Below are positions 11,690-61,722 of a stretch of 64,000 nt of DNA, piece after piece. The DNA is taken from positions 25,971,492 through 26,035,491 of the forward strand of contig OX637402.1 of assembly GCA_951799425.1 (NCBI GenBank). The letters are read 5' to 3'. Source of the stretch: Ilex aquifolium (taxonomy: Eukaryota > Streptophyta > Magnoliopsida > Aquifoliales > Aquifoliaceae). The notes under the pieces were generated by a model. The model had not been told where the DNA came from, ran no database searches, and saw only the letters and a program-made list of their open reading frames with translations. Numbering within the stretch: the first letter of the stretch is position 1; every line of letters starts with the position of its first letter. The translations under genes were made by a program, and so were the position numbers.

Positions 11690-11872
11690 ACATCATAAAT
11701 TTGATCTAATTTGCTGACATAATGATGTGACTTCATATGAACCATTGAATCAACATCAAGTACTGATGTTTGATGAGGTCTACAGTGAATGCAATGGTTA
11801 TAATGAATTAGATCAGCAAATTATGTAAGTAGATTAAGTCTCAATAGCATTGCTCAATAACTTATTAAATCT
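11690..11872. mobile_element. MITE-like foldback repeat, copy 1
   Basis: GATCTAATTTGCTGACATAA on the left is mirrored on the right by a stretch whose reverse complement reads TTACATAATTTGCTGATCTA. A related copy lies at 21715-21895 and half of one at about 25265-25395. Non-coding. Confidence 0.5.
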
Positions 11873-14832: not shown

Positions 14833-17800
14833 ATGTCATTCCGCAGCATAGCTCGGGACCTAAGGGACAGTTTTGGCAGCTTATCAAGACGGAGTTTTGA
14901 TGTGAGGCTGCCAGGCCATCACAGAGGGAAATCACAGGGTGCAGTCCATGAGTTGCATGACCACCCTGTGGTCATCCAGAACAGCTGTTGGTCTAGTCTT
15001 CCACCTGAGCTGCTCCGTGATGTGATCAACAGGCTGGAGACCAGTGAGACTGCATGGCCTGCTCGCAGGCATGTTGTTGCCTGTGCTGGTGTTTGTCGGT
15101 CATGGAGGGAAATGTGCAAGGAAATTGTAAAAAAACCTGAGTTATCTGGGAAGCTTACCTTTCCAGTCTCCCTGAAGCAGGTGGGTCCTTCCTGCTTTAT
15201 AGTCTTGCTTTAAATTATTTTCTAGATTGTGTGTACCCAGTTTGGCCGACATAATTATTCTTTTGAGGTATAGATACATCAATTCGGAGTCCAAGTGAAT
15301 CCTAATTAAGAGATTTAGATGACAGCACTATTTCATTTGACATTTTTCTAATTTGAATATCTTTTGCAGCCAGGGCCTCGGAATGGAACTATTCAATGCT
15401 TTATAAAGAGAGATAAAGCTAATTTAACTTACCATCTTTTCCTTTGCCTTGGTCACAGTAAGTGTCCAATTTCCATTGATTTTTGCAGCCTTTCTTTGGG
15501 AATTGAATGGATCTTAAACTGTTATCTCGGGCCTCAAGTTTCTACTCTAAAATATAAATGAGTTGAGTTGTTTTTCCAGCATGTCTCCCCCCAAAACCCA
15601 AGAAAAGAAAAAAAAAAAAAACCAAAGTGAAAAGAAAAGCGATGATGATAACTAGCTTTGTAATGCAAGCTAAGATCATGCTTTAAGTAGCCCCCTGCAC
15701 TTCCATCAAACTAAAAGTTCCCATAAACTTGAGCTTACTCTAGCCAATTTAGACATTGATAAGACCAAGAAACTGAGCCTATATATTCACCATCGGATGC
15801 TTGAGGATGTTTGCAAGGTTGGATTCCTGCTAGTTCAGTGTAAACTGGATCGGTGGATCCAATTCTTTGTCACTCTTTAGCTGAATGCGAATCACAGTAC
15901 TCTGGTTTAGATGTCTTCAAAATCTCTGCTTTGTGTATTATACTGGCCTGCTGGATTGAGTGTGTTTTCTTCTGCAAACAGCTTATATTGAACATTGTTC
16001 ACAAAAATAAGAAACCTCCTTTCCAGTAGGGCTGTAATTTATTGAAATCTTTCCTCTATGTTTCCAAACTAAGTGATTGCGTCACCGTGATTTGCACTGC
16101 ATTTGGTCCTGCAGTGGGGTGCTGGTGCTGCTGTTACTCTAGACAACATTGAAAATATGATTTCATTGCTCATTCAGTTGGAGACAAAAACCAGCCTTAG
16201 GCTGACTAGCTGAATCAAAACTCATTTTTAAAATTGACCAAGTCGATGAACCTTGCAGGTTCCAATTCCGTTGATGTTTCATTGTCCTTGGTATCATTTA
16301 CTCAGTATCTCCTGTTTTGGTGCATTCAATGCTTTGGATTCAGTCTTTCTTTGACTTCACTTACATTGATGTCTTTTATTATGTCTTACTGTCATCATTA
16401 CCTGCTTTTGAAGCATTGCTTGTTGAAAATGGGAAATTCCTTCTTTCTGCGAAACGCATTCGAAGAACAACTTGTACGGAGTATGTGATCTCGATGGATG
16501 CAGATAACATATCAAGGTCGAGTAGCACTTATATTGGAAAACTGAGGTATAGGAACCCTTTGAACTGTCTTCTTGAACACTTAATGTTGCAGTATGCTTA
16601 AATTCTACATATTCCTTGTATTAATGACATTCTTAAGAACGTTTTGGATATTCGACTTTGTATTGAAATTGTTGGGCGATGAAAGGGCTGGTAATGAAAT
16701 CCAATGGTAAACTCATTACTAAATATGAATGCTAAGCTTCACATATACTTGGAAACTTGTCTCAATATATGTTTTATGAATGTTATGCACATCACATTTA
16801 ATTATTTCTTGATGAGCCTCTTAGTTCCAGCATTTACTATAGAATTTCTTATTTTTTGCGTAGATGACATATAATTCGATACATGCACGCCCGCTGGTGT
16901 GCCTGGAGAGCAAGTGCAAGACAATGCTTTTCTAACTAGTTTTGTTTTAGATTTTGCTGCTTTGGATGTTGGCATGTGGCTGCTGGATTTTTTCTTTTAT
17001 GGCTCTTGTCTTGAGAGGAGACAATGAACTGGATTTTTTCTACATTTTTTTGGGCAAGGGGGGAGAGAGGGGGGGGGGGGGGGGGGGGGGAGGTGTCAAG
17101 AAATTAAAATAAAATATTAATATGATTGGTTGATTAAATTTGTTCTTTTTGGTATAGATGTCCAAGTTAGCTTTCATAGTAAATGGTCTTTGTGGACACT
17201 GTATTTGTAATTCATGGAATCTTACATTGTTCCGTGTCTTACATGAGAGACAGGTGTAAGCTATATAGGTAAATTTGGTCTTCCACCTGTTTGTTCTTTT
17301 TTTTTTCTTCTTCTCTCCAATTTATCGTCAGTTTCCTCCCCTTCCTCCCTGACCTGCCTCTTCAATCACTTCTCACCACTATCCCCGACGAGCTCCACTT
17401 CCAACCCATGAAAACCTGACAAACCTCACCACCAGCCCTCAACTTACACAGCCCAGACCACCAGCAGCCCCACAACCCATAGCACCATTAAACCACCTCC
17501 CCCCCCCCCCCCCCCCCCCCTTTTTTCCGCCTAATTGGCCCCCCACCAGCACCTACAGAACGTTTCCAATAAGCCCCACTGTTATACCCTCCACCTGCCT
17601 AGAAAAGAAATGGAAGGGGTACATTGAAAGAATGCTGAATTATAAGAAACAAAATTGAGAAAGAATTTTGTTTAAGGGCTTAATTGAATTAGGGGTCTAA
17701 ATTTATGGGTTACAGGTGTATTTTAGCTAACAATTTGTACCTCCAATAACTCCTCGGTGAACCCTCTGGCTTCGCATTATGTTATGCATTTGTTATTTTT

Positions 17801-18817
17801 ATTTTCTCATCCTCCCTTAGGCTTTGCTGTTAATGCTTGTCTAATGCTCCAGAATCTATACTGTTCAGAAAAAAAATCATGATATGAATACTTATGAAAT
17901 CTGTTTCTTTTATAGAAATTGATCAGTACAGGTAATTAGAGAGCATGGCAGTATTAGTTTTAGAATATTGTGTGATGCTAGTATCCTATTGTGTTTTTTT
18001 TTTTGGGTAAGTGGTATCGTATTGTTGCCTTCATGGATAATATCTGATTAGTTTTTTTGTACCTATTATTAGCACATCTGCTTCATTGGAATCTTTTTCT
18101 CGTTTCAGGTCAAATTTCCTTGGCTCAAAGTTCCTAATTTATGATACACAACCTCCGTGCAGCAGTGCTTATCTTTCCCCTCCTGGTCGTACAAGTCGTA
18201 GATTCTACTCTAAAAAAGTTTCTCCAAAAGTTCCTACTGGAAGTTACAATATTGCCCAAGTCACGTATGAGCTAAATGTGCTGGGCACAAGAGGGCCACG
18301 CAAGATGAACTGCATTATGCACTCAATTCCCACCTCAGCCCTTGAGCCGGGTGGTTCTGTCCCCGGCCAGCCCGAGCTCCTTCCCCCATCCCTTGAAGAT
18401 TCATTCAGGAGTATGTCATTCTCAAAATCAATTGACAACTCGACTGAGTTCAGTAGCTCCCGGTTTTCGGACATTGTTGGCCCACGTGATGAGGAAGACG
18501 AGGGAAAGGATGGACCTTTGGTGCTTCGAAACAAGGCTCCAAGATGGCATGAACAGTTGCAGTGCTGGTGCCTTAATTTCCGTGGGAGGGTAACAGTAGC
18601 ATCTGTAAAAAATTTCCAACTCATTGCTGCCACACAGCCTGCTGCTGGCGCACCCACACCAGCACAGCCTGCCCAATCTGATCAAGACAAGATTATTTTG
18701 CAGTTTGGCAAGGTTGGCAAGGATTTGTTTACGATGGATTATCGCTATCCTTTATCTGCATTTCAGTCTTTTGCCATCTGTTTGAGTAGCTTTGATACAA
18801 AATTGGCATGTGAATAG
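14833..18817 (+). CDS. Tubby-like F-box protein (TULP/TLP family), four coding exons
   Basis: Coding exons are 14833-15180, 15370-15457, 16414-16546 and 18109-18817. They join in phase to 425 residues, a normal TLP length. The start [20 protein letters not shown] is the conserved plant TLP N-terminus. An F-box spans about residues 54-100 ([14 protein letters not shown]...), which would dock to SKP1/ASK in an SCF ubiquitin ligase. The Tubby domain fills about 116-421, with [18 protein letters not shown], the [17 protein letters not shown] block that includes phosphoinositide-binding residues, and the family-typical C-terminus [15 protein letters not shown]. Plant TLPs attach to the plasma membrane through the Tubby domain and are released under stress or ABA signals, which is family knowledge. 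Intron 3 is 1.56 kb and contains paired homopolymer runs. The gene looks intact. Confidence 0.95.
17069..17520. repeat. G22 and C22 homopolymers in intron 3 of the Tubby-like gene
   Basis: A run of 22 G at 17069-17090 followed by AGGTG, and a run of 22 C at 17499-17520 preceded by CACCT, are reverse complements separated by about 410 bp. In the transcript they could pair into a GC stem of about 27 bp; the G run could instead form a quadruplex. The DNA between is partly pyrimidine-rich and non-coding. Confidence 0.8.
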
Positions 18818-21714
18818 TAGGAACAGAGGATCTAGTTGGTAATGATTTTGCTGCTTGCGTTTCATAGATTGAGAACTGTTGTACGAAGGTGATGTATAAC
18901 TAATTGTCAGACTGGAGAGTGCAGGATCAATATCATGCACATTGGAGGAGGATTTTCCTTTTTCCTAGCTTTCTGTATTTTCTTTTTCCCATGGGCTTTT
19001 GTTTGTTTCCAATGGTTGTCAATGCGTTGTGGAACCATAGTTGTTCTTTATGTATTGAAAAGAATAGTTAAAAACTATTGTGTTTCTGTGTTTTTACTTG
19101 TATCTTTTGCCTTTGATTACTTCATTTCTAATCTGCTGTGTATATATGCTTTTCTGTGCGTGTCCAGCCAGTAATGCACTGTTTTTGGAACGAACAGAGG
19201 TTCATCCACTGCTATGTAGGCCTTGTTCTGTGTAACAGCTGTTTTAAGCTCTTGCAATTGTATTGGTTGCATCCTGTTATTAATAGGTGTCTGCCAGACT
19301 GCCAGACTGCCATTCTGATTATTCCTTTGCCCATTCCTTGGCATAGTCCTATTTATCTCTGTTTATGAATTGCTGGAAGCCTTTAGGTGTTTCCTCATCT
19401 GTTCATGGTCTAGATACCACGTTCATTGTTCTAGTACCCCAACTGGACATTAGAAAATTGCTTTATGATGTGACCCGAGTAGTTATTTTGCTCGAGTGAG
19501 AGACATATTACTCAATCAAGCCCATCCTTGACCACAATGGAAGGTGGAAAAAAGATTGATCAGGATGAAATACCTAGCCGAGTGAGCTTGAGCACGCTAA
19601 GATGACTTTGATTAATCGAATCGAGTCATAACAGAGAGAAGAGAAGATACTTGTAACTGTAAACAACTTTGTGCTTGGAGCTTGAGCTCTTTAGACCTGA
19701 ATGTGTTTTCAAGGCTATAGTTTCTTTAACCTACTTGTTCACCCCATTATGCTTTGTAACAATTTTTCCCAATCTCACTGCCAAGTATTTCTGAAAAATC
19801 CTAGTAGTCATTCTTAAAATAGGCTTGTAGAACTGGTTTGTGGGTTGAATATAAGGGCACAATCATCAACTCATACACCCAAAGAAGATTTATTTTCTGA
19901 AAGGTCTGTCAATTCCAATGCAGATAATGAAGGGTATATCCATAAAAGAGAAAAAAAAAAACTCATAATCAGCCCACAAAATCATGTAATTAATGCACAT
20001 GACTTTCATTGGTATAACCTAAGTAAAGATGTGACCAATTTGTAGGGTAGTGAACAAACTTATTTCCGTTCGTATATCCATCCCATTAATAATTAAACCA
20101 TAAAACCAACAAATACTTTGCTTTTCCATTAGTATGACAAGCATGCCACTATGATAAAAAGACAATAGCAGACTGTTAAATAGTTCAAATGACAAAAAAA
20201 AATCAAAAGAAAAAGATACTTTCTACAACAAGTAATGTTGAATGATTTGAATTCTTCATCCACAACAAATTTGAACTAAACTTTATGCAAACAGTACTTG
20301 CCAAAACAAAGTCAAATTGATCACTGCCAGATGAACAGGTAAACCAAACAAAAGAATTTGTACAAGTATTATTGGTGAATGATCTGAATTCAACATTTTA
20401 CAAACCTATTTCAAACAAACTTTACACAAAAAAAGATACAAACAGTACTTGACAACATGAAGCCAAATTGATCATTTTCAAACAGGAATTGAGCACTCAC
20501 CTACATGTTTGCCACTTGACCAACTAAACAAAAACAAACCCAGTGATTTTGGTGCAGCTGCAAAGGCAACACTGACTAATAAGAGTTGTCTCACAAGGTG
20601 CAGAGGCCATGGGTTGAAGGTGGTAATGGTTAAGCCATGGTGGGGCTCTCTATATCATTGACAGACTTTGAGAAGTGAGCACTTCTGGGCATCTAAACTG
20701 TATTCACCAAAAAGCTGAGCTTCAGCTGAAACTGCTCTCTGTTCTCCTATGGTGGCATATAGATACACCAGCCTTCTTTGTAGGCCAGGTATCTAGGACA
20801 GATTCTGACCATTAGACCAGCTGACAAACAACGCCCCTCCCCCAACCCCCCTCTCTCTCTCTGTTTCTTTAAGTACTAAAAACTCCAATGCCCCATATCA
20901 TATTCTTTATAACAAGAAACCTCTCCACGATAGTACAATTTTGGACTCGCCTTTTGCAGAATAAACCATAAATATATGTAATCATCGGATGAAAACAAGT
21001 ATTGGTTAAACTTGAGACCAGTAAGAGTCGAAACTATGACACTCGAATTTATGGTTCATCCCAACCTAACCCCACACTATCATTGTGGCCTTTCTGTGTT
21101 AGAGAAGACAAACATGAGAACATTGAGTAGTATACTAAATGAAAACGAGTGAGAGAGAGAGAGAGAGAGAGAGGGAGGGCGGTGGAACTAATACATAGGA
21201 GCGATAGCTATGAAGTTTTTTTTTTATGGTGGTGGTTATAAAAAAAACTAGAATATCCTTGCGCCATCATGGCCAAAGATTTGAGCTTTTCTGCCTGTCC
21301 TCTTTTTGATGGGATATAAATTAGAACGAAAAACAGAATCTTTGACAAATTTTTATCTTTCATTTTTTATAAACAGGGCATTGAATATAAAAGTACAGTA
21401 ATAACTCAAATCGTTTAGTTATGAACCAAACTTGAATTCTCGATCGAATAACCCATGAAAGTTTTTTCATCCGAGCTTGATAAATTATAGCTTTTTGTTT
21501 TTACTTTTTTTTTTAATCATGCTTTATTGGTGTTATTATGGTGAATTAGAGGTAAAGGATTTGTGACTTTGGGCTTCAATTAATATCAAGTAAAGAATTT
21601 TAGAAATTAATTTTCATAGAACTCAATAATGTATATGATATGGAAAAAAAGATGCAAAAGAATCGCACACAAAAACACACGGAATTATTTGAAAATTTTG
21701 AAACGGCAAAAAAA
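18818..21714. other. 3' UTR of the Tubby-like gene and intergenic DNA
   Basis: The 3' UTR probably covers the first few hundred bp (about 18818-19180). Beyond it I see no gene. A (GA)n run lies at 21150-21172. The block 20560-20860 is less AT-rich than its surroundings but has no long frame. Confidence 0.45.
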
Positions 21715-21895
21715 TCATGAAGTCATACAAATTTGACTTAATTTGCTGACTTAATGATGTGGTTTCATTGGAACTGTTGGGTCAACATCAAGTTTCAATG
21801 TTTAATAGGGTCCACAGTCAATTCAAAAATCATATTAAATTAAGTCAATAAATTAGGTCAGTAAATTATGACCCAATAACATTGTTTTATATTAT
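21715..21895. mobile_element. MITE-like foldback repeat, copy 2
   Basis: It shares GACTTAATTTGCTGACTTAA, the ATGATGTG stretch and the GGTCAACATCAAGT-like stretch with the copy at 11690, in the same order, and has the same foldback pattern. Non-coding. Confidence 0.5.
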
Positions 21896-25670: not shown

Positions 25671-25913
25671 GGTTGCACGCCAATTACGTGGTTCATAATT
25701 TTATGTCTATTTGGTCTCTAAAATTTTTAATTTGTGTTGATTTCATGTGATTAGAGCGTGACTAGAGACATTAACGATTTTTTAACGGACGTTTGGGGTT
25801 GGGCCACATAGCTATAAATTAGGAATTTTAAGGACCAAATAAATACAATTGAAAAATTGATGACCAAATAGACACTACACGCATAATTTAGAGATTAAAA
25901 ATGTATTTTACTC
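25671..25913. mobile_element. Short inverted-repeat element of the TGTCTATTTGGTC type
   Basis: TGTCTATTTGGTC followed by an AATTTTTAATT-like stretch near 25707 is mirrored by the reverse complement of 25840-25880, giving long imperfect inverted repeats of about 70 bp around a short centre. No target duplication is found. It sits directly upstream of the presumed promoter at 25.93 kb. Confidence 0.45.
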
Positions 25914-25925
25914 AAATTATAAAAC

Positions 25926-26101
25926 AACCCTAAAATAATTAAAAAATCCATAAATTTGTAATAACGGTTTTTTTTTTTTTTTTTGGACTGGGCAATTAGT
26001 TAGCCTTGTATATGTCAAGACTGCCCATCCATCCCAGCAAGGCCCTAGCTTCTCTCGGCCGTTCACTATCTCTTTCGTGCCGCCGTCGAAATACGGATCT
26101 G
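25926..26101 (+). promoter_or_regulatory. Telo-box/site-II-like promoter and first exon of a non-coding locus
   Basis: AACCCTAAA (a telo-box) lies at 25926-25934, TGGGC at 25989-25993 and GCCCA (the same motif inverted) at 26023-26027. The telo-box plus site II (TGGGCY) pair is known from plant promoters of ribosomal-protein and snoRNA genes; here the base after TGGGC is A, so the match is partial. GC-rich sequence follows at 26040-26100 and ends in a strong donor, ATCTGTAAGT, after 26100. That fits a short first exon. Confidence 0.45.
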
Positions 26102-26344
26102 TAAGTCCACTTTCGCACTTGTTTTAACTCTCTCATGCTTTTCCGATCTAGCCCGATGATGGAAAAACCTCAATACATTGAGCGGTCTGGTGGTCTTACT
26201 TCATCATTAGCCTTTGCTCATCACCGGAGAAATTATCCACCACCACCACCATTGTTGCCACCTCCTCTCTCTCCTCCTCATCCTATTTGCTATGCACACA
26301 TGCACACACATATACAAATGCGTAATTTCTTCATGGTGGTGTGT

Positions 26345-26417
26345 AAAGGCTTCTGATGAATAAACACTAGATTCAAACCGTCGATGATTCTTCAAAGCTA
26401 TGAGATCTGAGGGCCAT
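26345..26417 (+). ncRNA. C/D-box snoRNA-like sequence A (guide toward elongator tRNA-Met)
   Basis: Box C is TGATGAA at 26354-26360 and box D is CTGA at 26407-26410. GGCTT before box C can pair with GGGCC after box D (three Watson-Crick pairs and two G-U), the terminal stem expected of a C/D snoRNA. A C'-like GATGA lies at 26383. The antisense element next to box D is AAGCTATGAGAT. Its complement AUCUCAUAGCUU contains the anticodon loop of elongator tRNA-Met, and the fifth base before box D faces C34 of the CAU anticodon. C/D RNAs guide 2'-O-methylation by fibrillarin at exactly that position; human SNORD97 does so on elongator tRNA-Met. Confidence 0.6.
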
Positions 26418-29189
26418 CATTAAAAATGTTTCAATTTTGTCCGTGTGTGCCTATTTACTGTTCTTATATAGATTGTGTGAGATTGGAAAGTGAAACATTG
26501 GTGGTGTTACTGGTGTATACCACCCCGAAAAGGAAAAAGTTTCTTTGTTTGGATGTATTTTTGGTTGTCAGCGTAATAGTTTGTTAGCTGTTGGTTTTTG
26601 TGATAATGACATATTATTGGGTGTTCAAGTGTTGTTTTAGCAACTGCAGAATGTGTAGATTGGAGGGAATAATGCTACTTATTTAAATTATGTAGTGGTA
26701 TCATGCATATACACCTGGTATATATGCAACACAAATATATTAAAAGTAGAATGTGCATGAATTGTGAGATCGAATTTCGTCTGTTTTGTTTGATTTCTGT
26801 TGGAAATAGTTAGTGTTAGATTATGAGTAGATTGCATGTGTAAAATGTTTTATGTTATCCTTTTATGTGGTGTAAAAGGCGTTTGTGTGTTTAAGAGAGC
26901 TATAGTTGACACCAATCTTATCTTCTCCACAACTCTTTACCACCCTATATTTTAGGGGAGGACTTTGTTTCTGTTTCATGATCTGTTGGCCGATTCATTC
27001 AACAAAAGGAAATAGGTTGCATATCCCTTGTAGTTAATTAAAATTAGAAATCAGAGGAGTCTAGAATATCATTGGAGACGTATAAAAGAAATTTGTCTTG
27101 CGTGCTTTTGTCCATCATGCTGACCCTATACTATTGCTATGCTTTTGCATCTTCACCTCAGCACAATAGAGAGGATCAACAAAAACCTTTGATATTTGAT
27201 GGTCCTACTCAATTATAGTCGTCATAAATAATCCACTCTTTTTATGTAAACCTCCCACACTCTCCATAATCTCGGGTCCATTTTTGCTGCTTCTTTGCTT
27301 CCCTAGTGGCTTTGTTGTTAACGTTGATCTGTGAGTTCATTGTAGTATTCCTAATAATCATTACTAACTTTTTTATTAGTCCATAGCTCCAGAATCCATG
27401 GGTTGCTCAGTGATGTAGATCTTAATGTGTGGTTAACCATTTGTCATTATCACCATCTTTAGGTGTCAATGTAATTTACCTTATTTAACATCTATCTGTC
27501 TATCTATCTGTTGATTGATCTCTTTATCTATGTCTATCTCAAGTTGTTTAAAATCGCTAGGATATGGTTTTAGTTTGTTTGTTATGAGTGTAGGGTTTAA
27601 TTTGTTTTAGTAGTCCATGTCAGTGCATAATTGGGATAATTGTGAAGTCTTGGATAAGATGTGATTATTGTGATGGCTACCGTACTTTGAATATATTTCC
27701 ATACTATTTCATTATAATAATTCATCCCAAGACTTGGGTATTATTTTCATATTATTGTTTGAAACTCAAAATATGTGCACATTGTCACGCTACTTTTGGA
27801 TTTTGTTGTATAGAATTTTTCCTTGGAGGCTTGAAATATATAGTGGAGATGGAATGTTGACCTTGGTAGGATTTTATTTGAACCAATCTTTTCTTGGGGG
27901 GACATAACACATTTACTCAAGCAAGACTTTTATTTCTGCAGAAGTTCTTTCAATAATCTTATTATCCTTGCTTTGATTAGTATGAGTGAAGCACTTTGTT
28001 GACATGCTCCTACAAAAATGTGAAGTACATTTGCATATTCTTGATAAAGGATTATAGGTCATCTTTGATTATTATTGAGCCTTAGCCTTTTCTTTCTTAA
28101 TAATCTCCCTAGATAGCCATGATTGAGCTTATAATGAGAATTCATTTCTTAGCCATGCTTAAATATATGTTCCAATACCTTGGTTAATCCCGAATTGCGT
28201 ATTATGTGTATTTGAGATGTGTGAAGGGTTAAGTGGTAAGGAAATGAGAAAGGAAGGGGTATGTGTACAAAAAGAAAAAAGAAGTATCATTGGGAAAAAA
28301 AAAAATTGAGAATAGGAAGTCTATGAAAGGGAGAGGAGACTTTGTACAAGACAAAATATATTCGGGTTAACCTCTTTAAATTCTTTGAAAACCTTCACTT
28401 CTTATAACCAAAAAGAATAGTATGGATTTCTCCAATACTTAGGGATATGTCAATATAATTGCTTTTACTTCATACTAATATCTTTTATGAGATTATATCA
28501 AATTCATTCATTCAAATATCTGTCTTTTGGAACTTAACATATGTGAGTCATACTTTTGTTTTGATATACATGATTCTCCTCACATATGAGCGTTGTGAGT
28601 AATAAAATCACTATAACTTGGAGTGTTTTTATTATAGAGTGTTAACGCTTGGAGAGGTTTGAGATAAAAGCTAGATATGGATGGCTAAAGCGGAAGATTG
28701 TAGTTTACTAGAATTTTGAAGATAGCATGATCATCACACACACACACGAGTTTTGAATGATCCTATGACATGTGAATATCTTTGTTTAGCAGGGATATCC
28801 ATAAATGAGTTTGTGGAGATTTATTCAAGGTTTATGGTTTAGACATTGCTATCTCATTGTTAACACGGATCTAACAGGTGATTCCAATTATTGTTGACAT
28901 GTATTGAAGTTTATAGGTATCTTTACTAGAAACCTTCACAAAATAAAACTTGTGTTCAAAAACTTATTACATATGCTCAATGCAATTGTACTACCAACGA
29001 AAGTGATTTTTTGATTTATTGTTATTTTATTTTTGGTTTTTGTTATTACTAGGGACTAGTAATATTTAGATTGAGTGTGATTAACCATTAAAAGTTATAT
29101 TTTAACATGCATTAGAATGGTTAATTACATTTATGAAGTATTTAATGGGATAATTTTAATATCATTTTATGTATAATGGTTGGTTTGGA

Positions 29190-31100
29190 GTAGTGACATT
29201 ATTTCAGGGGTAAACAGGTCAATGTAGCAAGTTGGTAGACAAAGGCATGTGGAGGAAACGATTGGAAAAAGAAAAGCAAGAAATTCTAGAAGGAGCAGAG
29301 GCCTCTGCTGGCGTTCGAATGCCACCCTCAATCAAATATTCTCACTAAAAAATTGGACAAACAACCACCTCCACTAAAAGAAGAGACAAATTGGAGGAAA
29401 TGATGGAAAACTATTGGCATTCGAACTCCTATCCAGAAATCAAGAAAAAGCAAGCAAATTTACCCGAGAGTTGCTGGCGTTCGAATGCCTCCCTCAAAAG
29501 TTGAATTTTGCAAGTTGATTTCCAACTTCAGATTTTGTGCTCCACCTTCGGATACTTATTCATCAACTCCAGATTTTGTGCTCCACCACTTAAAGTAGAA
29601 TATTGCTCAAAATGTAGAGAGAGTGATGAATAAGTATGTCCTCAAGTTGATGACGACGATCTAGCACCATATCGCGTCAAAAGACCAAGGATCTGCTTTT
29701 GATTGTCTTCATAGCAAACCCATCCTAGCCTCAAGACTCCCCATTCTTTTCTCCATTCCTAGCATAATCTCTGTCTCATTCTCCTCATTCCTAGCATAAG
29801 CTCTTGTGCCAGGTCTCTCTCATTCTCCTCATGCTCGGCTTCCTCCTCATTAGCCTCATTTCTAACCCCTCTAACTCCTTACCTTGCCACATGCTCAGTG
29901 CTCCTATGGACTGTGGTCTTATCCAAATGTGCTAATTCCTCCACAATCTTCTAACTAGGGTCGACCACAACACCCTTATGCTTGCACAATTTAGTGACAA
30001 GAATCCCAAATGGAAGAGTGGGTCTGTTGTTTCTTACCATAGGCATCATTTGGTCAACAATTAGATTGGGTAAATCAGTTGAATGCCCTTCGCCAAAAGC
30101 ATGCAATAACACAACTCATTCTTTATAAACTTGATTCTTTTGGCTTTGGGCATTAGGTTGGTCACTACAATTAAGTTGAGAATTCTATATTTCTTAGTGA
30201 AGTCGCCTTGCTTAATGCATTTACTCGGGATATCCAGTTAAAATCCTGCCTATTGCATTGTAGTCAATTGGGGGATTAGGGGGTACATTGCATTGGGTAC
30301 TTTTGGGCATAGGCTTAATGATATCAAAAATCACCCTAGGATTAACAACAAATTCAAAACCCCTCACAAAAGTAGTAAATTGCCTTGCCTCAGTAGGCTC
30401 GGCATTGTTGTAGAATTCTTTCACATTGCATTCAACCCCAACTCCAATCGATTTCATGTAACTCTCCCATCCTCTATTTCTCAACATTCCCCTTATACCC
30501 AAGTGCTTAAAATCCTCATATATGATTCCCTTTTCACAAACTACAGATCTGGCAGAGAAGTGGAGGTAATACATTATCTACAAAATGATTCCCCTTTCCC
30601 TTTGCACAAGATGCTAGAAGAAATTATCTCCAAAATGGTAGTGGACTTGAGGTTCTTGCTCGTGCAACCCAAGATTTTGCTCTTCTTGTTCCTTTTGGGA
30701 TGGTTGCTGAGGTCTCTCCTTGGTTTGCTAGAGCTTGTTCTATTAGCAATGTGTTTTCTTCTTGGTCCCATGAGAACAATCTGTGATGAAATCAAAGAAA
30801 TCAATTAGTGAAATTGTGTTAGGAGCCGTAGATTTTGAGTTTGGAAAGAAATCAAGTTTTAATCGATGGTTTTGAGTTTCTAAGGCGGGAGGACTGTTTA
30901 AGGAGGCTAGGGTTTCTAAAATATCGATTAGGAGGCAAAAATGGCGAAGAATGATAGTCTGCAGAGCGTTTGAACGCCTATGCCTTTCTAGAATTTTAAA
31001 GGCTTCTATTTTTGGCTTTTTGCTCCAGGGTGTTTGAACGATGGTCAAGGCGGATCGATTGGGGAGGCTAGAGGATTGTGATCGTTGGCTCAGATCGAAT
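29190..31100 (-). mobile_element. Old fragment of a retroelement-type plant transposon protein gene
   Basis: On the minus strand, about 30221-31050 encodes pieces resembling the putative plant transposon protein domain found in plant retrotransposons (for example VKEFYNNAEPTEARQFTTFVRG). It is broken, with several interruptions, and no terminal repeats could be recognised, so the outer limits are rough and the copy looks old. A phrase close to GGCGTTCGAATGCC recurs around 29.3-29.5 kb. It interrupts the presumed non-coding locus. Confidence 0.5.
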
Positions 31101-31861
31101 ATCGTAAGATCCTACAAACTCAAAAAAATGAGACGAAAAATATATGTAACACTACAAGGTTCTTAAAAATAAGAATGAAATAAACATGTTATATATGTAA
31201 ATAGCATAACAAATATAAAACTTAGAAATATGATTAAAATCTGAAAAACTATAATCTAAGCATTGAAGAGGGTTGAAAATCAAAGGCGAATTGTTAATCT
31301 TGTGGGATTTTGCAAAGATTAATGAGAGAATTAAAGTATTTTGATCCTAACTAGCGGAGAGAGATGGTTGTTGAGGGGAGGTTGGAAAGTCGAGAAACTG
31401 TTGAATAAACCTCTTTGACCGTTCGACATTAAAAATAGAAGTGGATAAAAATGAAAGATTATGGGCTATAATCACTTGCCGAGGTGATGAGATCAAACCT
31501 AGCTGTTGTTTTTTACTTTTCAATAAGAGAGATGAATGAGTCAAGAGAGCTTCTTCTAAAGCTTTTTTGTAATTTTTCTCATCCATCGAAATTCCCCGAT
31601 ATAATAACAATTATGTGAGACAATCCTATATGGATTGAGTCTTTAAGTATCAAACAATGAATATAAATTGGGTTGGCTCGATAACAAAATGTGCCTCATA
31701 AACTTACCCAACAATTTGAATCGGGATTCTTTGATCCTAGAAATTCGGATAGAACCTATAAATTAGAGATTCTGCAAGAGACTCGGATCAATTTGTTTGT
31801 ACCGATTGTGGGATTGTAAGATCTTTGATAACCATGGTCTATCTATCATGAGGTTTTGTAA

Positions 31862-31932
31862 AGGCATTTGATGAATTTCATGAGCCCTAAACCACAGATT
31901 ATTTAATCAAAACTATGATATCTGAGGGCTCA
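31862..31932 (+). ncRNA. C/D-box snoRNA-like sequence B (diverged copy)
   Basis: Box C-like TTGATGAA at 31867-31874 and box D CTGA at 31921-31924 are spaced as in copy A. The guide reads AAACTATGATAT, with two changes from copy A. One falls at the third base before box D and weakens pairing to the tRNA. GGC before box C and GGGCTC after box D allow only a short stem. It may be a decaying or retargeted copy. Confidence 0.45.
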
Positions 31933-32485
31933 CATTAGTCAACGCTTTTCTATTCACTCTAATAGCTAGGTCTAGCTCAAATACAGGTCACACCTTGGGT
32001 TTCTTATGCCCTCATGTCTTATCTAGATGTATCATGCAATTATTTGGTTGATTTGCAGTTTGGTTGGTGATTTGGCCCATGTTGGCAGTTTCCTAATGTT
32101 AGTTTATATATTGCGATTCTATGGGTGTTGTTCTTTCTTGGAGATTCACTATGAACCCACTTACTTGTGTTTTTGTAAGCATGTCCGTATGTGTGTGTTT
32201 GTGTACATATTTATTATATAAATATGTAACTTGCCATTATCCGATTGCTCGGTGATGACAATCTCAATTTATTGAGCAATAATATGGTCTCTATTTATCT
32301 CTAGCCTTCACTCTCTACCACCTCCACCTCTTCCTTCATCAGTGGGCCCACCAAAGTTAATGGTTGATGATTGAACTTCAACAAAATTGACAGAATTTGG
32401 AATTGAGATGATCCAGATTCTGCCACCTATTTCATCATAGCATTGCTCCAGTTTACTGACTAGTGTAATCGTTGGTGGAGATTGT

Positions 32486-32534
32486 AGTCTTTTGATGAAT
32501 GCCATTTATTTGTAGCTATGAGATCGTGGGGCTC
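32486..32534 (+). pseudogene. C/D-box snoRNA-like sequence C (degenerate)
   Basis: Box C-like TTGATGAA at 32491-32498 and the conserved GTAGCTATGAGAT at 32512-32524 remain, but box D is replaced by CGTG and about 20 nt between the boxes are missing compared with copy A. It is unlikely to form a C/D particle. Confidence 0.5.
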
Positions 32535-33521
32535 TTGTCAACTAGTATTTTGAAACTTTGCCTATCTTAAACATCAGACCTAGGACGGTTGTTCTGATAG
32601 ATAGTTATTGGATTTCGATTGCAGCTTCTGGTGCTGTTACATGGTTCAGAAACTTAGTATTTTGATGAATTCGAAGAAGTGATGAATATGAGAATTCATA
32701 TTTGATCCCTGCAAACTACCTTTAGATTGTACAGGCAAAGTGTGTTTTGCAATAAAGTGTTGGGTTGTCAACTTGAGATATTACGAATTTTACAACCTGG
32801 TACATTGGGTGAAGAATACATGGTAGGAGATAAATTCCATTTTGGCATCATCTGCTCATGTTATTTTTCAATGTGATGTACTTGATGATGCCTCAAAATT
32901 ACTTGGTTTCCACATAATTATGTATATGGCTCTCTGTAATATAGGTAAATAATATGCCACATTTTGCATATCTTAAGTTTGGTTTCAATTTCTTGTTTTC
33001 TTGGCACATGAAGGATTGTTCAGTAAATATAAACTCATCCATGTAACAGATTGTGTATCTGTCTTGTATTTAATGAGGCTTTATATCCAACTTCTTGAGG
33101 TTGTGTGTTTGTCTGATTCTTCTCTGGACAACTTGTAGAGCTTGCAGCATTCACAAGTATAAGGTTTCAACAGTGAGTCGTATTAATCTACATGATATCA
33201 TTGTGTTTATTGACGAATTTATTTTGCTTTGGTTACCAATTGTCCGTGTTTAGTGCAATTTGTTGGCTGCTATATGTTATTTTGTTTGCAGTTCATCTAA
33301 TTTTTGCACTTTTGGGATACTTGCTTCTTGTTGTCTTGTCCCATTATCTTGTTTTGTATATTTATGACTAAATGCCCGATGATGGAAAATTCATTTTGTG
33401 GAGAGGTTGCTTTGGTTTTCATTCTAAGCCTCCCCCTATCATTATCATCATCATCACCATCACCATCATCATCATTGTCCTTCTTGCTGTTATTGTTACA
33501 TCAATATTATGACTCTGGGGG

Positions 33522-33596
33522 ATAGGTTTTAATGAAAAATCATAGCACTTAACCGTCAAATGAAAATTATGATAGCTATGAGATCTGAGGGCCTAT
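33522..33596 (+). ncRNA. C/D-box snoRNA-like sequence D
   Basis: Box D CTGA at 33585-33588 is preceded by TAGCTATGAGAT, the same guide core as copy A, and followed by GGGCCTAT. That can pair with ATAGGTT at 33522-33528 into a stem of about seven pairs. Box C is TAATGAA, one base from TGATGAA and therefore weaker. The internal stretch AACCGTC is shared with copy A (26377-26383), suggesting a second conserved element near D'/C'. The terminal stem is the best of the four copies. Confidence 0.5.
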
Positions 33597-34580
33597 TTAG
33601 CACATCCACTATGGTTGCTTTTATGCACACTTGCGTGCCCCTTTCAGTTTTAGATCGATATTGAGTTGCATATTCTATGGACAGATTTGCACCTAATCTG
33701 TTAAAACATGAGTGCTTGGATCTCAGCTTGTCTCATGTTCTGAAGGTGTCTACCCAAACTGAATTGCTTCCTTAGTACTGGTATGCACCTAAAAATTCTC
33801 ACTTAGTGCAAATTTGACCATTCCTTTTCGTGTTATATAAGTAACTCTTTTACGGACATCTTACAAAGTTGCACATCTAGTCCATTGTAAATGTTTTCTG
33901 CAGCGTCCTAACAGATTATATATTGGTGATGCCATTCAGGTAGCATCTTTGTGGATACTTTGTCAAGCAGTACAGAATGCAAGTCGGAAGATTTTAATCA
34001 TCTTCCTCATTTCTTTCAATGGTAAATCATCTTTCATTATAGACTCGAGTTGAATCTATTGTACACATAAATGGGTGTCCTATCAGTATCAGTACATTAT
34101 GAATGATCTATTATTGTGTGAAATTAAAGGGCATTGTATTGTTATTAATTTGTTCTCTCCTTTGTTAAGTTCCAAAAAGTTTTGTTGTCCTCTGAATTGG
34201 GAATTTTTTGAATACTCTCATTAGTTTGATGCCTTAAAAGTCATTTCAATCAACAGAAGAATTCTCCTGATCATAGGAGTAAATTTAGGCTTTCTCGATT
34301 GTTGAAAACTTTAAGAATCGAATCTTAACCACCTTTAATGTGGTCGCCATGTGTATAAGCTGCCATCATTGCCGCCGTTAATGAGGGATTAACATTTTTT
34401 TTCACTTTTTCAAGCTTTCATCATGAACAAGAAGGCATAGAAATCGGAGAGATAATTTGGAATCTCGACACCGAAAGTTATGAAACTTTAAATACATCTC
34501 AATCAGGGGTCGTAGAAATCTTTTTTTTTTCTCATATATCGGGGAATCATCTTAATCATGCACTTTATATTTCATTTTTG

Positions 34581-44037: not shown

Positions 44038-44748
44038 TATAAATCTCCCCACCTATTAGGTTTTCAGACATCCCCCAGTTCATTTCCTTCACCACCCTTC
44101 TCTCTCTCTCTCTCTTTCTGCTGGTACCTTGTTCTCTGAAGGGATTTTCAGGGTTTTTCCAGAAATTGAAGGCCTGAGTTCTTTGGACTCGTTGTGTTCT
44201 AGGGGGTCACTTTGAAAAAAATTGGTCTTTTGTTGGTGCCTCTTCATTTCCAGCAATTCTAAGCTCAATTGGGTTTGTTCTGTTTCTGGGTTTTAGAGGG
44301 TGTGATTCCAATTTTCGATTGAAGGGTTTGTTTTTTTGGTAAACAATTGGGAAACCATTCGTGTTCTAGGGTTATCAGCTGAGCCAAGTTTGCGTTTTTG
44401 CCATTGTCTCTTTTATTTTCAACCATTCTTGAGTCCAGTGGAGTTCTCTAGTTTCTGGGTTTTCCCAAGTTTGATTCCAATTTTCATTTGAGGGGTTTTT
44501 TTATTCCTTGAGCCCTCAGTTTTGGGCAATCTAGGGTTTTTGTCATTATCTCCTCAATTCCTACAAATTTTGAATCCAATGAGTTTGACCTGTTTGTAAC
44601 TTTGGGCCTTTCGTTTGTAGCGAATCTTGAATTTTTGTCATCATCTCTCCAAAATTCTTCATTCCCACCAAGTTATTCTGTTTCTGGGTTTTTGGATTTT
44701 GTACCAATTGCCATTTCAAGAATTTTTCTGAGTTTTTTCATGTAAGAA
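44038..44748 (+). promoter_or_regulatory. TATA box and long leader of the ROH1-like gene
   Basis: TATAAA at 44038-44043 would place the start near 44070. A (CT)n run follows at 44099-44116. The leader is then about 670 nt, rich in GGGTTTTT-like phrases and upstream ATGs. No convincing leader intron was found, though one cannot be excluded. Confidence 0.5.
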
Positions 44749-45888
44749 ATGCCAACAACAGATTATCAAGGATCATCAGCATCTTTCATCAATTTTGGCC
44801 GTTCAATTCTAAGTACACGCCGTGATCAGGTTCATTCAATGGAATCAACTCATGGGGCCACAAGCCAAGAACTTGAGCTCGAAGCCTTTCAGAAACATGT
44901 AGCTGAAAGGTTTCACGATTTATCGTCTGTCCAATCCGATGAGCTTCTCTCACTTCCATGGATTAGCAAACTTCTTGATGCATTCCTATGTTGCCAAGAA
45001 GAATTCAGGGCCATAATGTTTAACAACGGGGAGTACTTGAATAGAGCCCCGATGGATCGATACACGTTGGACTTCTTTGAGAGGAGTGTGAAAGCTTTAG
45101 ATGTTTGCAATGCAATTAGAGATGGGATTGAACAAGTCAGACAATGGCAAAAGCAATTGGAGATTGTGTTGTGTGCATTAGGCAATCAGAGGAGTTTTGG
45201 AGAAGGCCAATTTCGTCGTGCCAAGAAGGCGTTGATCGATTTGGCAATCGGAATGCTTGATGAGAAGGAGTCTAACACAACTCTTGCTCATAGAAATCGA
45301 TCATTCGGGCGTAACAATGTGCATAAGGATAACAAATCCTTTGGGCATTTTAGATCATTGTCATGGAGTGTATCCAGGTCATGGTCAGCTAATAGGCAGC
45401 TCCAAGCTATTGGGAACAGCTTGGTTGCTCCAAAAGCCAATGAAATTATGGCCACCAATGGACTTGTTGTTGCTTTTTATACAATGAGCTATGTGCTATT
45501 GTTTGTAATGTGGGCTTTAGTGGCCGCAATCCCTTGTCAGGACCGTGGCCTCCAGACACATTTTTATGTGACTAGGCAGTTCAGTTGGGCAGTTCCTATT
45601 CTGTCACTCCACGAGAGGATTATGGAGGAATCGAAGAAGAGAAACCGTAGAAATTCTTGTGGATTGCTGAAGGAGATTCATGAGATTGAGAAATGCTCGC
45701 GTCTCATGAATGAACTGACTTATTCCGTTCAATTCCCCTTGACAGAGGATAAAGAGAGAGAAGTAAGGCAGAGAATGCAGGAGCTTGGACTAGTTTATGA
45801 AGCAATTAAGGATGGATTAGACCCGTTGGAGCGCCAAGTGAGGGAAGTGTTCCATAGGATTGTGCGCAGTAGAACCTTTGCATCTTGA
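44749..45888 (+). CDS. ROH1-like protein (DUF793, BYPASS1-related), single exon
   Basis: An uninterrupted frame gives 379 residues from the ATG at 44749, a normal size for this intronless family. Landmarks are [19 protein letters not shown] near the start, [20 protein letters not shown] at about 68-87, and [13 protein letters not shown]-like [19 protein letters not shown] at 109-127. A single membrane-like helix follows at about 238-261 ([20 protein letters not shown]), with a helical C-terminal part ending [20 protein letters not shown]1 in Arabidopsis binds EXO70 exocyst subunits and affects seed-coat mucilage; BYPASS1 relatives restrain a root-derived growth signal. That is family knowledge, and this copy's role is inferred. 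The arginine- and serine-rich stretch at 182-215 is probably disordered. It looks intact. Confidence 0.9.
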
Positions 45889-50257: not shown

Positions 50258-51472
50258 ATGGAACTTGAATTGGGACTCAAGCTCACCAGAGTATTAGATG
50301 ATTTTGCCGCGGTTGATCTTCTAATCGCGAAGGATCGAGCTGGTCCTCTTTTCTTGTCTAGAGAAACAGAAACCATGTTTATCCTTACTGCTCATGTCAA
50401 AGGTTTTCTCTCTTTTCTCCTATCTGTTTGTGTGTATGTGCTACAATTTGATTCATTTTTTTTTTTTTTTTTTGCTGTATTACCATTTGATTTGGTGAAA
50501 AATTGAACAAATCCAGGTTACAAGAGAGAGAATATAAAGATTGACATCAATGAGGATGGGAATATAATTACAATAGGGGGTGAAAAGCCAGTCCAGGAGA
50601 TGGTGGTGGTGGGAGGAAAAGTGATCAAGAAAGAGGAGGTGATGAGGGGATTCAGAAAGGCTTTCAAAATTCCTGGTGGAGTGATTTTGGACAAAATCGA
50701 GGCGAAATTTAATGAGGATGAATTGCTTTTGACAATTACAATGCCAAAATCAGTTAAAGGTGTTACCAGGATTCAGATTGAAGAGGTGAAGGAAGAAAGG
50801 CTAGCTAGGGGCCGTTCGGGATCACTGGAAATTATAGGCGACAAGGTCACTGAGAAAGAGAAAATGAAGCAAGATGAATATGGAGAGCCTGAGATTGTTG
50901 ATGTTAAACAAACTGATCAAGCTAAGCAAAAATTGCCAGAAGAATATGAACGACGAGAGGGGTATGAAAATTTGAGTCCTGGGAAAGAAGAACCGGCTGG
51001 TTCAAAGGTGATGCACCAAGAAGAAACTCAAGGAGAAGAGGCTAATAATTCGAATGAACAGGCAAAGAAAAAACAGGAAGCGGAGTGTGAGCTGCGAGGA
51101 AAAGAATTAGAGGAAGAGAAAACAAGTCAAGGTGTTCGAGCACCAGAGGAATTCAAAAGTGATCAACAACTTCATCAAGCTGAAGATCAAGGTCAGCATA
51201 AAGAAAATAAAATTGTTCGCGGGAAAGAAGTTGAAGGAAGAGAAAATGATATTCATGAAGAAGTAAATGGTGCAAAAGAGACAGAAGAAGGTGAATCTTC
51301 GAGGGTGAAGAAGGAATACCCCCGTGATCAATCAACTCAAACAGGGGAGACACCTACAAAGAGGTTCAAGATCTGTGCTCCTATGTTTGCAGGATCGGCA
51401 TTGCTGGTCTCTCTTATAGTGTTTGTAATTCATGTTATTAGAGATAAAAGCCAACAAAGCAAAAAACAGTAG
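50258..51472 (+). CDS. RTM2-like HSP20-domain protein with C-terminal membrane anchor
   Basis: Two exons, 50258-50402 and 50517-51472, join in phase to 366 residues. An alpha-crystallin/HSP20-like domain spans about 33-126: AHVKGYKRENIKIDI, then GFRKAFKIPGGVILDKIEAK, then DELLLTITMPK. A long charged, Glu/Lys-rich linker follows (about 135-330, probably coiled or disordered), then a single membrane helix at about 337-357 (MFAGSALLVSLIVFVIHVI) and a short basic tail. This layout is that of RESTRICTED TEV MOVEMENT 2 and its relatives, which are membrane-anchored HSP20-type proteins; RTM2 in Arabidopsis limits long-distance movement of potyviruses in phloem. Most paralogues have no known role, so antiviral function is inference. 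The ATG at 50258 is preferred because the N-terminal helix and domain follow directly. Confidence 0.82.
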
Positions 51473-58891: not shown

Positions 58892-61722
58892 CTACGTGCC
58901 ACAAGACGGCTTCTTCCTGAGCCGTGTTGGACGCCCATCCTGTAACTGTGATGGCTCGCCATCGCACACCTGTGACACTGGATCTCCGACTGGAATACTA
59001 TCTACCCCTCTGCTTGTGCCGCTGCCTCTGCCTCTGCCTCGACCACCCCGTACTCTACCACCGCGGCCTCTAACACCTCCATATCTGTCGCCTCGACCTC
59101 GCCCTCGACCTCGACCTCGTACTAATGATATCAGCTGGGCCAGGGGAGTCGTAGCACTGTGCTGTGACCTATGTACAACTGGGGGCGTAGTATGAAGTCC
59201 TATATCATGACCATGCGTCACAGCATCTAAAGGCTGGGATATCTGAACATTTGTGGGAGGTGATGCAAGCAGGCTGGGTAATGTGACTGCTGAAGTAGGT
59301 GATGTAAAAGTGGCTAGTCCTGCCATGGGTGAAACAGGCGATGCATGGTGCTCAGTAGGTATGAAGGTCTCGGTCAATGGTGATGGACGGGGTGTAGTAT
59401 GTGGTGATGTCTGATGTGGACTCGATGTGGATGGTGTATCTCCACGTTCTACGGATGGTGTCTGCTGAGGCTCAATAGGTGCTGATGTCCTCTCTGCTAC
59501 ACTCGTCTCTGGTACTGTGTCGCCACTGTCATCTACCCGAATATCTGGTCGGTGGCGTGGAGGTCTCTGTCGTCGTACAACAATACCATGAGTCCGGGGT
59601 GGTAAATCCGTCGGTGCACGTGGTGCAGTGTGTGGTATATGCAGCGGGTCGGTGTGGACCGCGCGATGTAGACGATGGTCCTGTCCAACCGCCTCTAGTC
59701 AAGTGGATGTCAGCGAACGGGCTGTCTGTAGTGTCTGTCTATGGGCTGTGTCCGTATCATCCGCAAGGGCAGCATCTGCTATCTGGTGAATCTGAACAAG
59801 TGTATGACCCTGTAAATGTAAAACTCACATACATTAGGATGATATAATTTATGTATTAGTAAATACTTATTATAATAACAAATGCACTTAGCGATTATCT
59901 TACAAAAATGTCGAATATGCTACCCATCGGCTGGAATCCAATAGGTGGAGTATGTACTGGAGGTCCGATCAACCGTCGAGTGATACGGCTATACCACACC
60001 ATATACGCATGAACACTCATATCGGTCACTGCTGCAGGTGCCTCCCCCGCAATAACATGATCTCGCCGGTGGGTCCACATATCTACAGACGAATGATGTA
60101 CAACACTCCAGTCATAACCACCTCTACCGCGTCGATCAGTAGCATGAAGAGCCGACCCAGTGTCACATGGCTGGGGGATATCCTGTCTAAATCCGAACTG
60201 GCGCATGACTCGATCAGGAAGATGCCACTCTACTAATGCAAAACATATAAGTGGTGCACGTGTCATCCACAAGTCGCTCCTAATAGTGCAATACGTCGGT
60301 AAGGCTGCTATGACCTCAGCACTATATGGCATCCAAACCATCTACAATAAAACAAATACTCAATTAACATGTAAGTGTAAAAACAGTATGACTTTTTAAC
60401 ATAGTGTACGTTGATGTACAAATTGAACCTGATCATCGCGCATCTGGTCTAGCTGATCCCTATAATGTCTGAGCACGTGTCTGGGGCTGTGTACATACGA
60501 TGTCATACGCACATTCCACCTGCAACTCATTATATTAATCATTTTGATCATTTGTGAAAAAAATTAATATTCATTGATGGTTACACACCTGCACCCCAAC
60601 GGACCCCTAGGTAATAGGTCATGCTGGTCAGGCATCTCCTCCGCATCAGCGGGTACCTCTGCAGCAACCCCAGCATCATGCCCCTCTGGCACGTGAATCA
60701 CATCGGGTCTATCTACCTCTGGTGCTTGATGAGGTAGTACTCTATCAGGACGGATATGCGTAAGCCGCTCCCAAGCCCATAACTATTACATTAAACGTAA
60801 CTATTAATTAGTAGTCATTCATATGAACATACCTTACAATTATATTTTAATGAAACACTACCTGTAAAATAACTAGCGGTCCACCAATGTCAGATCCGTC
60901 TGGTGCTGTAGCGCGACACATCTCACGGTACAAGCACGCAAGAGCTGCACTACCCCAGCTCAATCTCCCAGATGCATCTAGGTCCTCAAGATGTTGTAAG
61001 TATATAAGTCTGACCTTGTTCTGCGACTTGTCTGGAAAAATGTATGCCCCGATGAGCAGCATAATGTAGGCACGAGCATATCGATCAATGGTGATGGCAT
61101 CAGCATCATCTCGGAGTGGCTCAGCACATATAGTAGCAAGAGTGGTCATCTTAAGTCGAGATCCAGTGAATGCTGTGTCCGGTGGTCTAATGCCTAGATG
61201 ATGTTCACAGTAATCCTGCCACTCATGCACTGTGCGCTGTGTGTCAACACCGGTCACTGCATCACCGTCAATGGGTAGTCCGAAAAGTAGTGCCATATCC
61301 TGCAGTGTAACTGTCGCCTCTCCTATGGGCAAATGAAAAGTATGTGTCTCCACCCTCCACCGCTCCACTAGTGCAGTGACCAAATGGTGGTCCAGCTGTA
61401 TAAACCCAAGAGAGGCGATCCCATAAAATCCGGCAGTCATAACACGGCTCAATACCCTATGATCTGGTCGTCGTAAACGACGCATAGTAGCCTCTGCCCG
61501 ACATCACTTCAATGGTGCTAATTCCTTTAATGAATTACCAAAAAAAAATAATTATAATGTACAAACAGTGAGTTCTAAGTATCTACATATGTAGTGTACG
61601 CATTAAATTACGTGCCTGTCCATCCCATATCTGAGTGGACCGATGTCGTGGCTGCAAGTATAATACTGCAGGGTCAACTGGGCCCGGATGTACTAAGTCA
61701 CGCGCCTGCTGACGCTCTATAC
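58892..61722 (-). CDS. Plant mobile domain protein (MAIN / PP7-long-form-like), at least six exons
   Basis: Minus-strand exons read as 61612-61722, 60862-61493, 60589-60782, 60429-60519, 59904-60341 and 58892-59809. Family blocks occur in order: HPGPVDPAVLYLQPRHRS; then AGFYGIASLGFIQLD; ALVERWRVETHTFHLP and GEATVTLQDMALLFGLPIDG; then LWAWERLTHI; then GCRWNVRMTSYVHSPRHVL; then PLICFALVEWHLPDRVMRQF and AYMVWYSRITRRLI. The last exon is Pro/Ser/Thr-rich and ends in an RGRGRGRG-type tail. Plant mobile domains occur in host genes (MAIN and MAIL1, needed for silencing and meristem upkeep) and in transposons, where MULEs often carry them. Its place beside a MULE transposase points to element cargo. 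The last exon has an in-frame TGA near 59699, so the tail may not be translated, and no clear initiator ATG precedes the first exon. The ATG at 61483-61485 is an alternative start. Confidence 0.72.

Follow-up and report, generated by a model that had tools for sequence, protein, structure and literature searches.

Two tandem box C/D RNAs of Ilex aquifolium as predicted guides for wobble methylation of elongator tRNA-Met, with pairing into the tRNA intron

A 64,000-nucleotide stretch of the Ilex aquifolium genome (contig C12:25971492-26035491, hereafter the window) carries two intact copies, termed A and D, of a box C/D RNA whose guide is complementary to the anticodon region of elongator tRNA-Met. 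We propose, with a probability of roughly 0.8 and on the basis of sequence comparison, that A and D represent two isoforms of a plant guide RNA of the SNORD97/SCARNA97 type, with 2'-O-methylation of the wobble nucleotide C34 (Cm34) as the predicted modification and the unspliced pre-tRNA as the predicted substrate. Human SNORD97 and SCARNA97 (SNORD133) guide Cm34 of elongator tRNA-Met (Vitali and Kiss 2019, PMC6601510), in agreement with a preliminary description of the window that had named this role for SNORD97. Passages of the same paper name a common SNORD97/SCARNA97 candidate in Arabidopsis and rape, and the kind of RNA is thus already known. What appears to be new is that each of the nine Ilex genes located for elongator tRNA-Met has an intron after A37 and that the guide is predicted to pair across the junction.

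In the mechanism that we envisage, the GCCC and GGGC ends of the RNA would pair and so place box C (AUGAUGG) beside box D (CUGA), with a long hairpin carrying a pyrimidine-rich apical part between the boxes. The guide upstream of box D would pair with elongator tRNA-Met at its anticodon loop such that C34 forms the fifth pair, and fibrillarin, among the presumed protein partners, would add the 2'-O-methyl group at C34. It is likely that the unspliced nuclear pre-tRNA is the substrate, since a short intron begins right behind A37 and the guide pairing spans this junction; methylation would then take place ahead of splicing.

Results

Guide pairing with elongator tRNA-Met

Both RNAs carry the guide AGCTATGAGAT directly before a CTGA box D (from 26396 in A and from 33574 in D), and in both a G lies five positions before box D (26402 and 33580), as the preliminary description had noted. 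The sequence AGCTATGAGATCTGA occurs exactly at five places in the 800-Mb genome compared, two of them in the window, two on contig C16 and one on contig C9. The latter contigs hold duplicated loci, and a genome search recovered full-length A on C12, C16 and C9 and full-length D on C12 and C16; these are the five intact copies referred to throughout. The remaining three of six matches to A were 5' fragments, and the remaining 19 of 21 matches to D were short and confined to its repeat-like tract. Within the window, AGCTATGAGATCTGAGGG has four matches with up to three mismatches, two of them exact, against 0.02 expected. Guide and box D are identical in all five intact copies.

Elongator tRNA-Met genes were located with a sequence pattern, three mismatches being allowed, and the nine genes obtained all proved exact matches; ARAGORN reports one gene, left unnamed, at each of these places. 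Because all nine genes read GTCTCATAGCTT, the G of the guide stands opposite C34, and this is the fifth pair in every one of them. The preliminary description had placed the G in this register, and its SNORD97-type target is now supported by the plant's own tRNA genes and by the invariance of guide and box D. As far as sequence can tell, the target assignment is right.

Plant tRNA-Met introns are already known, and every one of the nine genes contains 11-12 extra nucleotides after A37, all starting GCTT (GCTTCTGAGTT in six genes, GCTTTCTGAGTT in two and GCTTCTTGAGTG in one). We delimited the intron against the downstream sequence ATCCTGAGG, from which we infer its exact ends; a passage in the literature gives 37/38 as the canonical position of eukaryotic tRNA introns (PMC3978253). 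With the unspliced pre-tRNA-Met, the A guide pairs over 12 nucleotides in seven genes and over 13 in the other two, and the D guide over 11 in all nine, again with C34 at the fifth pair; the deduced spliced tRNA pairs over 8 nucleotides with both. The preliminary description had used a match of 7 nucleotides; the true match is longer and enters the intron. Three bases of the guide, AGC, pair with the intron, and they are invariant in the five intact copies.

Read in the C34 register, the 325 CTGA sites on both strands of the window divide as follows: A reaches 12 nucleotides and D 11, and all others at most 5. We consider it very improbable that the RNAs are box C/D RNAs for ribosomal RNA (rRNA) or for a small nuclear RNA (snRNA) other than U6, or have no target at all, with a coincidental tRNA match. 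Besides the nine pre-tRNA-Met sequences and a single deduced mature form, the scan took in 30 of the 63 tRNA hits from Rfam and two of the 13 U6 genes; the cytoplasmic rRNA of this plant and U1, U2, U4 and U5 lay outside the scan, which leaves some room for such a target. Against it stand the exact register at a known Cm34 site, reached by only 2 of 325 CTGA sites, the lack of a comparable match among the 30 tRNA hits and two U6 genes, and the presumably homologous animal guides, which have been shown to act on tRNA-Met (PMC6601510). Probes for 18S and 25S rRNA had no match in the genome contigs or viral contigs, and a 5.8S probe did not find an intact rDNA array. Its sole exact match falls within a degenerate piece of rDNA (C13:2411400-2417800).

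Small RNAs from olive and aphid

Two olive small RNAs, oeu_mir_24 and oeu_mir_36, read GAAGCUAUGAGAUCUGAGGG and the same sequence with a final C, and were represented by 12 and 10 reads, respectively (PMC3564680). They were presented as putative novel microRNAs (miRNAs) and matched to poplar scaffold_13:1053462-1053647, the authors having aligned them to poplar because no olive genome then existed. The olive sequences cover the guide, box D and stem and end in GAGGG or GAGGGC, stopping at the terminal stem, and they appear to derive from the same RNA as A and D. With all nine Ilex tRNA-Met genes the olive sequence pairs over 13 nucleotides, five bases into the intron. Judging from these published fragments, we reread the olive small RNAs as 3'-terminal pieces of the guide RNA.

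A second fragment comes from aphid, where miR-1357 is listed as ATTATGAGATCTGAGGGCA (PMC3500242, Table 2). It shares ATGAGATCTGAGGGC with the plant RNA and agrees with it in box D and stem; in a comparison that covered this fragment and the plant 3' end, the two have TATGAGATCTGAGGGC in common. In place of the plant AGC it has ATT, which fits the intronless loop, and the aphid guide pairs over 10 nucleotides with the spliced loop versus 9 with the plant pre-tRNA. This RNA appears to be the 3' terminus of a SNORD97-type insect guide rather than a microRNA. Taken together, the 13-nucleotide pairing of the olive sequence and the 10-versus-9 pairing of the aphid sequence suggest a plant guide matched to the intron and an animal guide matched to the intronless loop. 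Of the hints that the plant RNA may act before splicing, we regard this contrast as the strongest.

Outline and anatomy of the RNAs

The conserved units start at GCCCGATGATGG, about 200-245 nucleotides upstream of the guide, and end with GGGC. Their parts in the window are as follows.

26151..26414, plus strand: copy A, full-length box C/D guide RNA of about 264 nucleotides, conserved with C16 and C9
26151..26154, plus strand: A, 5' side of the terminal stem, GCCC, pairing in folds with GGGC at 26411-26414
26156..26162, plus strand: A, box C, ATGATGG, kept in all five intact copies
26236..26295, plus strand: A, apical part, pyrimidine-rich (78% in 60 nucleotides)
26354..26360, plus strand: A, TGATGAA, read here as a C'-like element and in the preliminary description as box C
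26396..26406, plus strand: A, guide AGCTATGAGAT, with G26402 opposite C34 of tRNA-Met
26407..26410, plus strand: A, box D, CTGA
33374..33592, plus strand: copy D, full-length box C/D guide RNA of about 219 nucleotides, conserved with C16
33379..33385, plus strand: D, box C, ATGATGG; the stem joins GCCC at 33374-33377 with GGGC at 33589-33592
33429..33488, plus strand: D, apical part, pyrimidine-rich and partly microsatellite-like (75% in 60 nucleotides)
33530..33536, plus strand: D, TAATGAA (CAATGAA on C16), read here as a C'-like element and previously as box C
33574..33584, plus strand: D, guide AGCTATGAGAT, with G33580 opposite C34
33585..33588, plus strand: D, box D, CTGA
32246..32533, plus strand: copy C, decayed full-length copy resembling A, with the guide kept and box D now CGTG
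31842..31931, plus strand: copy B, 3'-half remnant with the guide altered to AACTATGATAT; profile match at 31846-31931 (E 2e-7)

The outline of the units follows from the duplicated loci. The conserved block around A spans 26024-26505 against C16 and 26116-26488 against C9, and that around D spans 33368-33595 against C16. The D-side block coincides with the unit that begins with GCCCGATGATGG and ends with CTGAGGGC, and the A-side block holds the same kind of unit plus some flank. Conservation spans the whole unit and peaks at the ends, guide and box D. In D, the 5' parts, guide and box D have column identities of 0.93-1.00, compared with 0.73 in the 3' arm, 0.80 in the C'-like element, 0.66 in the 3' spacer and 0.62 in the pyrimidine-rich part; outside the unit, identity drops to 0.37-0.48. 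Among the three copies of A, the structured parts score 0.78-1.00 and the pyrimidine-rich part 0.56, compared with 0.65 just upstream of the unit, 0.39 further upstream and 0.50-0.54 downstream.

All five intact copies have box C as ATGATGG and box D as CTGA, the last base of box C departing from RUGAUGA. We read box C as ATGATGG because the preceding base is changed in C9 and the box is kept. The GCCC and GGGC ends, which we take to resemble those of human SNORD97 and SCARNA97, are paired in the minimum-energy fold of every intact copy; as these pairs are invariant, the terminal stem offers no covariation test. The fold of A is more stable than its shuffles (z -3.18, with 1 in 200 equally stable), and in the consensus fold of the five sequences both sides have changed in 6 of 48 pairs. 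The most pyrimidine-rich 60 nucleotides reach 72-85% in the A copies and 70-75% in the D copies, where the tract is partly microsatellite-like; on the same strand of the window, fractions of 0.70, 0.75 and 0.78 are reached by 3.0%, 1.0% and 0.45% of 60-nucleotide stretches, respectively.

The preliminary description had instead drawn two ordinary C/D small nucleolar RNAs (snoRNAs) of 73-75 nucleotides (26345-26417 and 33522-33596, with 65-75-nucleotide molecules expected), placing their box C at positions 26354 and 33530. We hold this outline to be very unlikely. Conservation reaches at least 195 nucleotides further upstream, to GCCCGATGATGG, and the conserved units are several times longer than the molecule expected. 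In A the TGATGAA motif is also kept on C16 and C9, and yet the corresponding box differs in D on C16 and in D generally (TAATGA in the window, CAATGA on C16). The terminal stem drawn for the short form exists in the fold of the 75-nucleotide C12 D sequence, which has paired ends and z -1.82, but the ends are so paired in none of the three duplicate stretches (C16 A, C9 A and C16 D), and the 73-nucleotide form of A is no stabler than shuffles (z 0.76).

A coding reading of the 5' half, with an open frame by eye from ATGGAAAAACCT, was rejected: a 1-nucleotide gap falls inside the frame between A on C12 and A on C16 and C9, and D has little in common with A past the frame start. Upstream of A on C16 we noted by eye TGGGCC, CTATATAA and AAACCCTA, which we take to be promoter motifs; they are poorly kept on C12, and we thus claim no promoter.

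Decayed copies, repeats and the surrounding locus

The family announced in the preliminary description comprises two intact members in the window; its other members have decayed (C) or persist as a 3'-half remnant only (B). Both halves of C outscore 500 of 500 shuffles against A on C16, and B likewise outscores 500 of 500. A reading of B as an insertion-split gene with its 5' half at 27405 was dropped, 240 of 500 shuffles scoring as high. A search with GCTATGAGATCTGAGG, allowing two mismatches, gave 247 places versus 127 for a control, and 14 were inspected among the matches listed; the sole further exact 16-nucleotide match, at C1:53961084, has neither ATGATG nor TGATGA in the 330 nucleotides upstream and no GGGC stem, and was rejected.

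Contigs C2, C5 and C19 were considered as sites of further guides and discarded, as they hold only the first ~98 nucleotides of A, within a dispersed repeat and with no guide. This repeat combines that part of A with upstream sequence at 85-86% identity, and the upstream part of the C9 copy of A is common with it; it looks like a case of gene capture by a mobile element. The repeat, the long stable hairpin of A and the label chosen by the olive authors (PMC3564680) could together suggest a miRNA precursor or a hairpin-type mobile element. We find such an origin extremely improbable, as the regions covered by the olive reads are the guide, box D and GGG(C) and not the hairpin arms, D is not unusually stable, full-length copies are few (three of A and two of D), the repeat copies lack the guide, and C12 and C16 both have an adjoining Tub-domain gene. 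The Tub-domain block (18075-19384) lies in the window and upstream of the A-D pair on C16, and is 81% identical between them, consistent with the duplication of a chromosome on which an older A-D pair already lay.

The gene in question is a Tubby-like F-box gene with exons at 14833-19384 (Pfam F-box-like, E 3.6e-7; Tub, E 1.8e-75). A repeat of ~159 bp occurs twice in the window (11697-11855 and 21726-21884), both occurrences matching one stretch of C16 at ~80% identity. Mobile-element pieces lie at 30221-30577, 60847-61503 and 62534-62941 (minus strand), with Transposase_32 (weak, below cut-off), plant mobile domain (E 3e-50), SWIM and zinc-knuckle domains. The window further encodes a ROH1-like protein (44746-45888, E 1.6e-154) and, at 50507-51472, a protein in which an HSP20 domain (E 1.4e-6) is joined to a long charged tail.

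Discussion

Several results weigh against our assignment. When the register is ignored, unrelated CTGA sites score 11.0 and 10.5 on the pooled targets and D scores 10.5; as such sites do as well as or better than D, pairing length alone is weak evidence. The next best tRNA, tRNA-Ile(TAT), offers eight pairs, three of them G-U, and faces a U rather than a C. Unlike A, D shows no excess stability over shuffles (z +0.25), and the covariation term of the five-sequence consensus is unfavourable (+1.04). Rfam reports no family at gathering score in the window and no SNORD97-named family at E<=10 for 25800-34200, 26120-26440 or 33350-33620, so that the Rfam search suggested in the preliminary description did not return the expected name; Rfam presumably has a SNORD97-type model. 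The five copies are duplicates of one family, and the invariance of AGC is thus not equivalent to five independent observations. Finally, by eye, the intron TGAG could pair with CTCA of the anticodon loop, a stem that the guide would need to open.

Some of these points also bear on whether the same RNAs could modify the same site in the spliced tRNA through 8 base pairs, the intron match being a chance or relic feature. We consider this rather unlikely, though it is a possibility to be taken seriously: eight contiguous pairs persist with the deduced mature form, the extra pairs at stake number only three (D) to five (A with two genes) in copies that are not independent, and the intron may bury C34 in the short stem just described. 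Against this, the intron-matching AGC is unchanged in every intact copy, the olive/poplar sequence lengthens the match to five intron bases, and the aphid relative has at this place the ATT suited to an intronless loop. We thus favour A and D as guides for the unspliced pre-tRNA.

Beyond this assignment, it seems somewhat probable that the plant Cm34 guide co-evolved with the tRNA-Met intron, which it would read across the junction, so that wobble methylation would be nuclear and precede splicing, animal-type guides would fit the intronless loop, and the tandem of A and D would parallel the vertebrate SNORD97/SCARNA97 pair. If this is true, an intron-reading plant guide would order two maturation steps, methylation and then splicing, and a function would attach to the bases with which the short tRNA-Met intron begins. 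Such a guide also allows two published small RNAs, the olive "novel miRNA" and the aphid "miR-1357", to be reread as the 3' ends of guides.

What is known of tRNA methylation by guide RNAs in eukaryotes comes mainly from human work. Hybrids of SNORD97 and SCARNA97 with human tRNA-Met have been reported (PMC12645875). A survey of ribose methylation in Arabidopsis lists orphan C/D RNAs, its passages naming human and archaea as cases of guide-directed tRNA methylation (PMC8053127), and in the passages at hand an Ostreococcus survey cites only the human case (PMC7671301). According to a review, plant pre-tRNA splicing is probably nuclear, with one contrary report (PMC4090602). The plant tRNA intron is not a topic of the PMC6601510 passages that concern introns, pre-tRNAs or precursors, and our literature search, which covered titles, abstract openings and passages and had most subscription journals outside it, returned no paper on pairing between a plant guide and the intron of tRNA-Met.

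We compared A and D to the guides described so far. In human SCARNA97, a pyrimidine-rich internal part of 93 nucleotides acts as the Cajal-body signal (PMC6601510), and in their size and inner pyrimidine-rich hairpin A and D appear closer to vertebrate SCARNA97 and SNORD97 than to snoRNAs of 73-75 nucleotides. As in the human RNAs described there, C34 is at the fifth position of the box-D guide and two isoforms are present per genome. Unlike in these, the Ilex guide enters the tRNA intron, the isoforms stand in tandem, and the pyrimidine-rich part tops the hairpin. The candidates from Arabidopsis and rape are likewise from flowering plants and concern the same tRNA position; one candidate was named per genome, whereas Ilex has an A-D tandem on two chromosomes and a further A on a third. 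In the archaeon Haloferax volcanii, a box C/D guide for wobble methylation of elongator pre-tRNA(Met) has reportedly been described, by the title of a 2011 study by Joardar et al. That guide is archaeal, and its likeness to A and D, as judged by this title only, lies in wobble methylation on a pre-tRNA; if our reading holds, the plant system would be linked to this archaeal case.

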